From: Thermoproteota archaeon
GTDB lineage: Archaea > Thermoproteota > Nitrososphaeria_A > Caldarchaeales > Calditenuaceae
Length of the DNA stretch: 56,725 nt
Direction: 5' to 3'
Assembly: GCA_030550235.1 (NCBI GenBank)
Contig: JAUQPU010000001.1
Location: 1-56,725 of the forward strand
Positions 51,532 to 54,958 of this stretch are shown in pieces. Positions within the stretch are counted from its first letter, which is position 1; the number at the start of each line of letters is the position of its first letter. Made by a program: the position numbers and the translations under genes. A model generated the notes under the pieces. That model was given only the letters and a program-made list of their open reading frames with translations. It searched no databases and had not been told where the DNA came from.

Positions 51532-52980
51532 CTATACCTTTTGCTTAACAGTCTCGAAGAACTTCTTAGTCCGCCCCATGAGCTTGGCGTCTATATCCTT
51601 AATCCTAACCAGGACAGGTATGTTGCCCACAATGCTCCCGACAATCAATGCCTGCCCCAGCTCTAGGGCGGGCGCTATCTTCTTTACAGTCTCCGCGTCC
51701 ACGTGGCTGAACTTTGAGAGGGCCTCGAGGTCATTCTCGTTTATGAAGTTGAAGAGGAATAGATTGTCTGCCTGTCTGTATATCAGCTCTGGTATGGAGT
51801 CGGGCTGGTTGGTTACGAATATGGGCGAGATTCCGAGGTGCCTCATCCTTGTGACTATATCCTCCCAGTAGGTCTCGCCAACGTATAGGTGTGCCTCCTC
51901 AGAGACGAGGAAAAGGGGCGGGATAGAGTTCTCGGAGAGGTGCCTCGATACCCCGCTTAAAACATACTCAACAACCATCCTCCTAACCATGGGCCTCAGC
52001 CTAGAGAGGTCGACTACGACCACTACGCCGTCTTCCCGGCGGTTGAACAATCCATAGATCGGGTCATGGTCTCCATCGACTATAAAGCCTGAGCCCAGCA
52101 TTGAGTGTAGCCTACTTATCAGGGCCTCCCTTACAGCCTCATTCATGTGGGTTCTCCGCACCTCAGAGAGCAGCTCTTCAATGGTGAGCCTGCCTCTCTT
52201 CTCTAGATGCTCCCAGAGCCTCGCGAACTCCCTCAGGCTGTTCTGAGGAGTTGCATACACGTGCTCGAGGATATCAATCACGACGTCTAGGCCTATTGTC
52301 TCTAGCCCTACCCTGAAGTCGATGCACGGTCTGGCAACTATAATCCTCTCAGAGACCTCATTAGGCGCGCCCTCCCTCGCCTCGCCCAGCCCAGAGTACT
52401 CACCATTGATATCGAAGACCAGTGCGTAGCATCCCTGTTTAACAAGCTCGTAAAGTAGGACCTTCACGCAGTGAGACTTTCCAGTTCCCTTCCTCCCAGT
52501 TACGATCGTCAGAGAATTATCGAGGGCGGCGGCATCTATTGTTATTGCCTCGCCGAAGGACTCGCCAATCACTATTGGAATCAGCGTGTCACCCCTGACA
52601 TGCCTCAACACCTCGCTCGTGGGTATGCGCTGGATTTTCGAGGAGAACCTTGAGGGAATCCAGAGTGAATTAGACCTGACACCTTCCCTCCAAACTACTG
52701 TCCGGAGCTTTGCGACAATGACTTTGGACTCTCTTATAGAATGTGTTATGGAGTTGACTCCGTGGGGGTCGTAGACGCTTATGGAGGCTTTTTGGAGGGT
52801 CAGCTCGCGGAGGAGGTCTTCCAAGAGTCCTGGTATGTCGGCGTACTCAATGTCTATGACCTCGAGTATCAGGGTTTTGTCGCCCTCTACAGCCGCTATA
52901 TACTCTCCCCGCTCTATCTCTGTATCTCCCGGAAGGGCCAGTATCTCGAATGTGCCGTTGCTTTTACGAAGGATTTTCAT
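51532..52980 (-). CDS. herA: HerA DNA translocase/helicase
   Basis: 482 aa hexameric DNA pump working with NurA in end resection. N-terminal HAS-barrel (1-110), Walker A G-R-K-G-T-G-K-S near 160, Walker B region L-F-L-V-S-E-E-A-H near 352, and the C-terminal arginine-finger region. ATG start; its first 17 bases overlap the end of nurA. Mre11 and Rad50, often clustered with this pair, are absent from the window. Confidence 0.95.
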   Translation of the reverse strand: MKILRKSNGTFEILALPGDTEIERGEYIAAVEGDKTLILEVIDIEYADIPGLLEDLLRELTLQKASISVYDPHGVNSITHSIRESKVIVAKLRTVVWREGVRSNSLWIPSRFSSKIQRIPTSEVLRHVRGDTLIPIVIGESFGEAITIDAAALDNSLTIVTGRKGTGKSHCVKVLLYELVKQGCYALVFDINGEYSGLGEAREGAPNEVSERIIVARPCIDFRVGLETIGLDVVIDILEHVYATPQNSLREFARLWEHLEKRGRLTIEELLSEVRRTHMNEAVREALISRLHSMLGSGFIVDGDHDPIYGLFNRREDGVVVVVDLSRLRPMVRRMVVEYVLSGVSRHLSENSIPPLFLVSEEAHLYVGETYWEDIVTRMRHLGISPIFVTNQPDSIPELIYRQADNLFLFNFINENDLEALSKFSHVDAETVKKIAPALELGQALIVGSIVGNIPVLVRIKDIDAKLMGRTKKFFETVKQKV

Positions 52981-53983
52981 GGCTCCTTGTCTCGAATGGC
53001 GTTAAAACTGTGAGGCGCGGGCTTAGGATGTTTGACATCGCCGGGTTTGAGTGCCCTAAGAGTGCGCCCCTCATTGCCACTACGTCCATCCAGCTGAAGG
53101 TTGCATGGGCGTGGGCCAGTATGAGAGTCTCGGGATAGCCGTGTATCAGGGCGTCGGATGAGAGTAGCGACGAGAGGGCATCAAGCCCCCTATCCCTCGG
53201 ATAGGCATCAACCCTGAATGGGTAGAGTGATGGTGCAAGCCTAGTAAGGAAAACACCTCCAACACACCTCAGGCCGCTCCACATGTACATGGCAGCCTCG
53301 GTAAGGTCATGCACGTAAGGTGGAACTAGGCCATCGTCTTTGGGCTGGGACTCTATCCCTCCCCTCGCCAATAGACTCTCCTTTGAGAAGGCGAGGATTG
53401 TTCCACCAGCACGCTCGGCCATGTCCAGGATTGACTGGAGGAGCTGGCCAGACCTGTCGAATCCAGCCATAAGAGTCCCGTCGAAGAGGTATATCCCGCC
53501 CTGAATGTTGGAGAGGGCCCAGAGCTGGACAAGTCTCTCAAAGTATCTGAGCTCTTCTCTAATCTCGTGGCCGACGCTCTGGAGCGACACTGGTCTTATA
53601 AGTCTCAGGAACGGCCCAATCACCTTAACAGAGACCCCCTTAGACCTGTGGACAACTGCCGCCCTCAGCCCCACTATAGGGCCGGCCCTCGACTCGGCAA
53701 CCCTGACCACAGAGGAATCAATCGCCACAACATCGGAAACACACCCGCTCTCCAGCCCAATCACCGGCCCATCCAGACCCAAAAGGTTGAGAGAGAGATA
53801 GTCCCTCTCCTCCCACCACTCAAGCCCAAAATCAACCGGCCACTGGGGAAATCCAACACCCTCAGCGGCTTCGGAGATTGGAAGTGTGCCAGAGTCGTTG
53901 ATATAATCCATAAATACGTCCTCTATTGGTCTATTCATGGTGTCCAGCTTGTGCAGGAGATCTTTCACCACGCTCACCCTCAC
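52964..53983 (-). CDS. nurA: NurA 5'-3' nuclease
   Basis: 339 aa RNase H-like nuclease. The catalytic Asp is in V-A-I-D-S-S-V near 67-73; a second acidic site is in I-Y-L-F-D-G-T near 165, and Y-P-R-D-R-G-L and HAHATFS-type C-terminal motifs follow. GTG start (GTGAGGGTGAGC). First gene of the minus-strand operon. Only 32 bases separate it from the divergent winged-helix gene, so promoters overlap. Confidence 0.93.
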   Translation of the reverse strand: MRVSVVKDLLHKLDTMNRPIEDVFMDYINDSGTLPISEAAEGVGFPQWPVDFGLEWWEERDYLSLNLLGLDGPVIGLESGCVSDVVAIDSSVVRVAESRAGPIVGLRAAVVHRSKGVSVKVIGPFLRLIRPVSLQSVGHEIREELRYFERLVQLWALSNIQGGIYLFDGTLMAGFDRSGQLLQSILDMAERAGGTILAFSKESLLARGGIESQPKDDGLVPPYVHDLTEAAMYMWSGLRCVGGVFLTRLAPSLYPFRVDAYPRDRGLDALSSLLSSDALIHGYPETLILAHAHATFSWMDVVAMRGALLGHSNPAMSNILSPRLTVLTPFETRSHENPS

Positions 53984-54015
53984 TTCTTTATTGGTGTTGA
54001 ACTTGTTTATTAATT

Positions 54016-54477
54016 TTGTGCAAGATGGACAACATGTTCAACAATAAGGAAGCCGTGAAGGTCAGACTAACGATAGGCGACATAACAGTCGAGGTGGAGA
54101 CCTCATTAGAGAATGTTGAGGAGGCGGTTAGGCGGGCTGTCCTTGGGATTCATCAGGCGAGGGAGGCTCAAATTGCCAAAAATGTAAGGCAGGAGAGGAG
54201 GACAACAACCTGCGTAGAGCTCATTGAGAGGCTGGTCTCTGAGGGATGGTTCTCGACACCCAGAAGCCTTTCCGATGTCGTGGGGGAGCTGGCCAGGCGC
54301 GGTTATCACTATGACCCTACGGCCATAGCCCACAGTCTACTGGACCTGGTGAGGCGGGAGCTACTTGTTCGCGAGGGTAAGCCTAAGAGATATGTCTACC
54401 ACGTGGCCAAGCCTTTGGAGAAGGCTGGCGTGGAGCAGGTTGAAGAGGGAGGCGGAGCTACTTCTCCCGGGCGGTAG
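54016..54477 (+). CDS. Winged-helix protein with N-terminal beta-beta-alpha module (A)
   Basis: 153 aa from TTG 54016 (ATGs at 54025 and 54034 are alternatives). N-terminal module: V-K-V-R-L-T-I-G-D-I-T-V-E-V-E then T-S-L-E-N-V-E-E-A-V (about 14-40). A central region leads to a predicted winged helix (about 65-130: LIERLVSEGWFSTPRSL, HSLLDLVRRELL), then an acidic, glycine-rich tail. It shares the N-terminal module with the convergent protein (B) and overlaps its 3' end by 20 bases. Role unknown; divergence from nurA hints at regulation of the repair operon. Confidence 0.65.
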   Translation: MCKMDNMFNNKEAVKVRLTIGDITVEVETSLENVEEAVRRAVLGIHQAREAQIAKNVRQERRTTTCVELIERLVSEGWFSTPRSLSDVVGELARRGYHYDPTAIAHSLLDLVRRELLVREGKPKRYVYHVAKPLEKAGVEQVEEGGGATSPGR

Positions 54478-54958
54478 TCTTGAGGCGGTTCAGAAGCTCC
54501 TCTATCCCGGCCATAGTTGCCTGATACTCGCCCCGCTCAACCCGCTGGGCAAGTCCCCCACGTACAAGCTCTGTAAGCCTAGCCGTTAATGTCTTGTTGT
54601 TGAGACCAAGTGCTTCAGCCAACTCCGATACATCCACGCTACCTTTCTGGGAGAGGGCCATGAGGTTTTCAAGCTTCCTCTTGGCGAGATACAATAGTAT
54701 CTGTTGCGGGATGGGTAGGTCGCGGGCTGCGGGTTTTATGTAGAGGCCCTCGCCCTCGCTGTGGCCTATGAACATTTGAAGGGCATCCATAATATTAATC
54801 AGGTCTGGTCCTGTGGCTAGGCGACGTGCTAGGCCGTAGGCAGGTAGGTGCTGCCCAATAAAGCTCGAAACAAACCTCAGCACCTCCTCAACACTCCCTT
54901 CAGCCTCAGCCTTCAGGTCTCCCAGCTGGAGCTGGACCCTGAGCCTTTCACCACTCAA
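54458..54958 (-). CDS. Winged-helix protein with N-terminal beta-beta-alpha module (B)
   Basis: 166 aa, TTG start. N terminus L-R-V-Q-L-Q-L-G-D-L-K-A-E-A-E, then G-S-V-E-E-V-L-R-F-V (about 5-31), matching protein A in pattern. After a linker comes a helix-turn-helix of MarR/TrmB-like look (SVDVSELAEALGLNNKTLTARLTELVRGGL, about 105-137). No catalytic residues seen. Faces TBP, from which 57 bases separate it, on the same strand. Confidence 0.65.
   Translation of the reverse strand: MSGERLRVQLQLGDLKAEAEGSVEEVLRFVSSFIGQHLPAYGLARRLATGPDLINIMDALQMFIGHSEGEGLYIKPAARDLPIPQQILLYLAKRKLENLMALSQKGSVDVSELAEALGLNNKTLTARLTELVRGGLAQRVERGEYQATMAGIEELLNRLKTTAREK

Follow-up and report, generated by a model that had tools for sequence, protein, structure and literature searches.

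Gene A, which is transcribed divergently from the nurA and herA-like genes of a hot-spring archaeon, encodes a small winged-helix protein that is probably a dedicated autoregulator also controlling nurA-herA; autoregulation taken by itself is likelier still. In relatives as in the 56,725-nucleotide stretch of DNA that was analysed (the window), A keeps its divergent position beside nurA, and the gap between the two genes carries a conserved element at A's own promoter. The features of the locus, in window positions, are as follows.

51532-52980, minus strand: herA-like ATPase gene
52964-53983, minus strand: nurA nuclease gene, starting at GTG 53983 or, by relatives, at GTG 53968
54006-54014: conserved, near-palindromic TATA-like box, TTTATTAAT
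54016-54047: putative operator, with TGNNCA units at 54017-54022, 54026-54031 and 54035-54040, in 9-bp steps
54016-54477, plus strand: gene A as an open reading frame of 153 aa from TTG 54016 (beta-beta-alpha module and winged helix)
54034-54477, plus strand: most likely extent of gene A, from ATG 54034 (alternative ATG 54025), by the relatives' alignment and spacing
54052-54180, plus strand: N-terminal module of A (AlphaFold2: strands 13-20 and 23-30, helix 31-55, residues counted from 54016)
54199-54414, plus strand: winged helix of A, residues 62-133 (5nbc_A, Z 10.8, rmsd 2.5, 71 aligned)
54458-54477: tail-to-tail overlap of A and B, 20 bases
54458-54958, minus strand: gene B, 166 aa (beta-beta-alpha module, helical linker, MarR/AspA-like winged helix)
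54461-54733, minus strand: winged helix of B, residues 76-166 (4rs8_A, Z 10.8, rmsd 2.5, 78 aligned)
54848-54943, minus strand: N-terminal module of B (AlphaFold2: strands 6-12 and 15-21, helix 23-37)

Both open reading frames described by the first-pass annotation are present with their overlap, and the neighbours that it named, nurA, herA and tbp, are real. The nurA frame scores 36.8 bits against the Pfam NurA family (PF09376, gathering cut-off 21). The herA-like frame scores 54 bits against DUF87 (Pfam cut-off 23.2) and its product matches the HerA structure 4d2i ('HERA') at E 1.2e-10 in a PDB sequence comparison; against the NCBIfam equivalog for HerA of Thermoproteota (NF040937), it reaches 51.4 bits, short of the cut-off of 800. 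Because a further and more diverged pair of HerA- and NurA-like genes lies in the same genome, some 27 kb outside the window, the window genes are only likely to be the repair pair. The second pair comprises a NurA-like protein of 429 aa and a HerA-like protein of 493 aa with a weak CedD match (G000:C8 about 83640-86380; L236:4640-7382), and it adjoins a gene read by eye as threonyl-tRNA synthetase. Neither mre11 nor rad50 was located here, the rad50 search having used TIGR00606, whose control misses Sulfolobus.

Gene B runs in the same direction as tbp, 57 bp behind the tbp stop. For A, translation more likely begins at ATG 54034 (or 54025) than at TTG 54016, as the latter stands directly behind the conserved TATA-like box; a leaderless ATG 54034 fits best, since a start at 54016 would precede the transcription start expected from the spacing. 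The alignment of relatives suggests that nurA may likewise start later, at GTG 53968. The gap of 32 bases originally proposed therefore holds for the ends of the open reading frames, but would amount to some 55-65 bases with the likely starts.

The N-termini of A and B, both of which contain a V-x-L-x-x-G-D...E unit, are one homologous beta-beta-alpha module. The relationship is revealed by profiles only, as BLASTP of the single sequences finds no similarity (E 8.8). When a profile of 25 A rows is compared by hhalign with one of 36 B and B2 rows, the alignment begins in the module and has P 1.2e-6, and with larger profiles of 93 A and 94 B members the 37 aligned columns are those of the module (P 1.3e-5). 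When the profiles are confined to the module, A and B align with a score of 34.4 (P 6.9e-9), a value reached by none of 100 column shuffles (maximum 22.4). Against 81 real segments of NurA, HerA, Ogg, TBP, aIF2-beta and Rsm, the A module scores at most 13.8 and the B module at most 13.1. For the other five module pairs among A, B, C and D the shuffles likewise reach the real score in 0 of 100 cases, the closest being A-C, at 21.1 versus 19.8. Over most of their length, full-length profiles give P 7e-19 for A-D, 9e-21 for B-C, 2e-9 for B-D and 3e-8 for C-D, and full-length A and C are not significantly similar (P 0.0044, at the winged-helix end); six short or divergent D-like proteins had been left out before these comparisons.

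The shared module that the first-pass annotation had read from two sequences is thus borne out by profile comparison, and it is not restricted to unrelated contexts, as further module-bearing paralogues, namely B2, C, D and more weakly E, sit in the same loci. E matches just the hairpin part of the module model, with E-values from 9e-5 to 5e-3. The module is not covered, in the members tested, by any Pfam or NCBIfam model that exceeds its cut-off; the single model to pass was AbiEi_4, which matches the winged helix of one B paralogue with 26.7 bits (cut-off 25). The mean pLDDT of the AlphaFold2 models is 76.3 for A and 85.6 for B; the model of A, computed from an alignment of 61 A and 8 D rows, has a pTM of 0.47. 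The module also occurs outside the nurA locus, in another module-winged-helix gene elsewhere in the same genome, and its sharing indicates a module-winged-helix superfamily. The product of the gene in question is 139 aa long and has no Pfam match (L184:1501-1920; G000:C13 about 48035, on another contig); the adjoining gene looks by eye like that of an HtpX-like protease. A tandem pair of B-like winged-helix proteins in which no N-terminal module is evident is encoded at L186:1071-1905 (G000:C3, about 35.1-35.9 kb).

Beyond the module the two proteins continue into different winged helices, as had been claimed, and on this point Pfam and fold comparisons agree. A search of the PDB with the AlphaFold2 models, which effectively covered the winged-helix halves only (A 60-137, B 75-166), places that of A nearest to the Fur/MecI type and that of B nearest to the MarR/AspA type. 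In the PDB sequence search, A finds nothing below E 0.1 and B finds matches to its winged-helix part only. Matches of A and B to Pfam and NCBIfam all lie below threshold: B scores 24.5 bits against MarR (PF01047, cut-off 24.6), with a similar fold over residues 76-166, and A scores 21.5 bits against HTH_27 (PF13463, cut-off 22.2) and 20.2 bits against Penicillinase_R (cut-off 22.6). The recognition helix of A is highly conserved, and A103, H106, L108 and V112 are invariant in 25 sequences.

Nor does either protein carry the accessory domain of its nearest relatives. No Fur C-terminal dimerisation or metal domain was found in A, in which only residues 136-153 follow the wing, with pLDDT under 50. 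No CARF domain was found in B, where TIGR01884 is matched only at its winged-helix end (profile positions 139-194 of 202); the N-terminal part of B, in which this domain was sought, is modelled by AlphaFold2 as strand-strand-helix. A role in phage defence was considered and is unsupported, since A has no PADLOC match at E 0.01 and B matches through its winged helix only.

The linkage of A to nurA was assessed in two partly overlapping sets of loci, the first being the best 80 of 143 selected by similarity to A, all from named records, and the second comprising 40 loci. Since both were chosen for A, B or their relatives, the counts describe the companions of A and not how often A stands beside nurA. 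The best-matching records belong to Candidatus Calditenuaceae and other 'Aigarchaeota'-type archaea. In the first set, nurA is the divergent neighbour of A, within 300 nt, in all 75 loci with at least 700 nt upstream, and herA follows nurA in all 69 with at least 2.5 kb. A is present in 24 of the 40 loci of the second set, and a divergent nurA adjoins it in 24/24. In 20 of these, nurA is of the window type, and in the other four the divergent gene encodes a quite different NurA, recognised by Pfam and missed by the window-based profile, with NurA scores between 50 and 82 bits (50, 61, 67 and 82).

L077:7066-8214: different NurA
L079:3349-4467: different NurA
L087:3471-4652: different NurA
L097:6988-8136: different NurA

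A HerA-like ATPase follows each of these four, and both of the two that were tested are recognised by Pfam DUF87. That A is kept beside a different NurA shows that the linkage persists even where the nuclease has been replaced or has diverged deeply. Within the order of the window, A was detected in all but two of the 44 genomes, and those two are 82% and 76% complete; B was detected in 41 of 44, although matches to B at E <= 0.01 may include other winged-helix proteins. Distant A-like proteins (MAKIRLRFGANEVEID...) occur in other genomes of the phylum (L075, L090, L091), where window-based profiles detected no nurA or herA within about 5 kb.

The wider neighbourhood is less constant. The tbp gene, real as it is in the window, adjoins the locus in only 4 of the 80 first-set loci (L103-L106), all from the window's genus. 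The convergent pair of the first-pass annotation belongs to a wider group of nurA-herA-linked genes, comprising A, B, B2, C, D and E. Arrays in relatives combine A with B and B2, or A with B, C and D, and in Wolframiiraptor-type loci E lies upstream of B2-B. In several loci without A, the paralogues themselves precede the repair genes, as co-directional C-B-(B)-nurA-herA (L081, L086, L092-L094) or as C, B, B and D followed by nurA-herA, again all in one direction (L080).

This arrangement bears on whether the common module joins A to B (or C) in a hetero-oligomer that works as one regulator. The modules are homologous and the genes linked, and in four second-set loci A shares its direction with B, B and mostly C (A-C-B-B in L077, L097 and L087; A-B-B in L079). 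Against this, A and B are convergent, and hence not cotranscribed, in the window and in the first-set loci; in one genome (G008) B lies about 131 kb from A; and while B, C or D points towards A from downstream in 42 of the 72 first-set loci with at least 2.5 kb there, none is present near A in the remaining 30. A joint regulator of this kind is thus quite improbable, and A acting through its own site is the reading pursued here.

The gap between A and nurA is filled by the TATA-like box together with an element of 25-35 bp that is made up of TGNNCA units. The part of the gap that is best conserved among six Calditenuaceae-type sequences is TTATTAAT with the bases that follow, and the nurA side varies. 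By eye, a TATA-like box followed by TGNNCA units recurs in 32 other loci, the units having the form TTGTGCAAGATGGACAACATGTTCAA in the window, TTGCTCAA-N-TTGAGCAA in Wolframiiraptor-type loci and TTGYGCATGNNCAWVWTGNNCAA in Bathyarchaeota. As the motif had been defined on those loci, it was tested across groups. An nhmmer model was built from 28 elements of L103-L130 and L132 (L128, which did not fit the extraction rule, being left out) and applied to L131 and L133-L182, most of which are titled as Bathyarchaeota and a few as 'Thaumarchaeota' or other archaea. One of these 51 loci had too little upstream sequence and was omitted.

In 47 of the 50 loci of this Bathyarchaeota set, the best match falls within the 130 bp before the A module, compared with 0-2 of 50 for ten permuted models; 37 of the 47 are on the A strand, 14 have E <= 0.05, and the exceptions, with their best match elsewhere, are L143, L160 and L161. 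The 25 nt of the model without the TATA part still succeed in 37/50 loci, versus 4/50 for the TATA part alone and 0-1 for five permuted versions. A stricter fixed-position form matches 44/50 loci (all but L143, L157, L160, L169, L175 and L180) versus 9 of 9261 random windows from the same loci. In the A loci outside the two groups (L076, L077, L079, L087, L097), TTG...CAA type repeats were seen by eye after the TATA box of A. Loci without A (L075, L081, L082, L086, L088-L094) give nhmmer E-values of 7 or worse within the stretches searched, and L080, which has D and not A, gives a weak match inside B (E 0.15).

The exact form of the site is found only at A. Across the 44 genomes of the order there are 20 exact sites, one in each of 20 genomes and all at A, and in four additional genomes of the phylum a single exact site per genome was found, also at A; two sites that carry two mismatches lie elsewhere in these four. 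With up to one mismatch allowed, the site is at A in 32 of the 44 genomes, off-site only in 4 and absent from 8. A wider regulon within the order was considered and rejected: 17 one-mismatch matches lie off-site in the 44 genomes, compared with 15 for the reversed pattern.

Since the element lies at or after the expected transcription start, it might be a conserved 5' leader feature of the A mRNA, and some members from Bathyarchaeota could form a 9-bp hairpin. Yet only 25 of 44 sites show complementary bases at the facing positions 4-20, 23 at 5-19, 23 at 8-16 and 25 at 9-15, and an RNA hairpin at the element was rejected on these grounds. In addition, the outer TTG and CAA never vary, although these outer bases were among the selection criteria, and the spacing differs between groups. 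An RNA leader is accordingly very unlikely, and the element is better read as a putative operator.

Negative autoregulation and repression at the own promoter are common to many archaeal local regulators, whose usual anatomy is a conserved regulator with its own conserved site and divergent genes across a short gap. Gene A, with an operator-like conserved element at its own promoter, resembles this pattern. A would occupy the TGNNCA units that immediately follow the TATA box in the gap between A and nurA, and would probably do so as a dimer or a larger oligomer in which the module may take part; the element could also be read by a factor other than A. Bound A would cover its own transcription start, resulting in negative autoregulation, and would obstruct the divergent nurA-herA promoter, resulting in repression. 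The effect on nurA is suggested by position, as the element lies on A's side of the gap. The near-palindromic TATA-like box, which lies about 27 bp from one candidate nurA start and about 42 bp from the other, could serve both genes.

The same findings may be read differently, with A controlling only itself and acting as a DNA-binding accessory of HerA-NurA, in end recognition or a nucleoid role, rather than as their transcription factor. The location of the element downstream of A's TATA box would suit such a role, as would the finding that the 44 genomes of the order and the four further ones contain no other exact site, and the persistence of nurA-herA linkage where the architecture has changed (L080) or the NurA is of another kind. 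However, the short gap and the near-palindromic box make separate control hard, and a physical partner would not need the divergent order that is kept in 75/75 and 24/24 loci. We consider the accessory role unlikely. The earlier proposal that one of the two proteins regulates the repair operon is strongly suggested for A, by the conserved element and this divergent adjacency, but not for B.

The paralogues B, B2, C, D and E, having the same type of N-terminal module, would likely be regulators, or partners, of nurA-herA. In some lineages that lack A, the co-directional C-B-(B)-nurA-herA operon is headed by C and B, with TACGTAA-type motifs upstream. In raw counts, ACGTAA/TTACGT occurs upstream of 8/19 arrays headed by C, 6/21 headed by D and 0/41 headed by B, and GTAAAYTYTAAA upstream of 4/19, 11/21 and 0/41, respectively. 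The former recurs upstream of C in L080, L081, L082, L086, L087, L092, L093 and L094, among which A is present only in L087, and is perhaps a counterpart operator. A GTAAATTCTAAAAGG-like motif, counted before 11/21 arrays headed by D and 4/19 headed by C, was seen upstream of C or D in L140, L142, L147, L163, L174, L178 and others.

Control of nurA-herA is already published for Sulfolobales. As described in excerpts of the respective reports, herA, mre11, rad50 and nurA of Sulfolobus form one essential operon (PMC4351679), the herA-mre11-rad50-nurA operon of Saccharolobus is regulated after damage by the Orc1-2/ArnA network (PMC10470591), overexpression of csa3b in Sulfolobus islandicus is accompanied by 2.7-fold nurA and 2.4-fold herA transcription (PMC7480081), and Csa3a is also tied to nurA-herA transcription (PMC10013973). 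Csa3a and Csa3b are, like A and B, archaeal winged-helix factors, and the winged helix of B resembles that of Csa3 (PADLOC E 3.2e-7; 2wte_A, Z 9.6, rmsd 1.4, 68 aligned). Unlike A and B, which have the short beta-beta-alpha module, Csa3 works for CRISPR and carries a CARF ligand domain, and A differs further in having its own conserved site beside nurA. The Orc1-2/ArnA system, from what the excerpts describe, is a network with many targets, whereas exact sites were found here only at A. MarR-type regulators and AspA of pNOB8 share the fold of B's C-terminal half, but B falls just below the Pfam MarR cut-off and its N-terminal half is different. Fur- and Penicillinase_R-type winged helices are the closest fold for that of A, which lacks the C-terminal metal or dimer domain and otherwise consists of the module and a low-confidence tail. 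No description of A/B-type proteins or of the site was found in the open-access PMC text that was searched, including passages of PMC4351679, PMC10470591, PMC7690668, PMC7480081 and PMC10013973.

On a broader view, which we regard as doubtful, A, B, B2, C, D and E would together be an archaeal system devoted to controlling end resection at double-strand breaks. Homo- and hetero-oligomers formed through the module would respond to a damage signal, or to the HerA-NurA proteins themselves, by lifting the repression of nurA-herA. Such a local SOS-like circuit would predate the divergence between Bathyarchaeota and the window's lineage.

To our knowledge, control of the level of DNA-end resection in archaea is known mainly from Sulfolobus. 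There, according to excerpts of the published accounts, the resection genes are essential and under wider networks (PMC4351679, PMC10470591, PMC7480081). Where genetic tools are lacking, a regulator devoted to these genes and equipped with a deeply conserved site of its own would open a direct experimental route, since both the protein and the site can be prepared and assayed in vitro. If the reading drawn here from sequence comparison is true, A is probably a local switch for the neighbouring genes that trim broken DNA ends.
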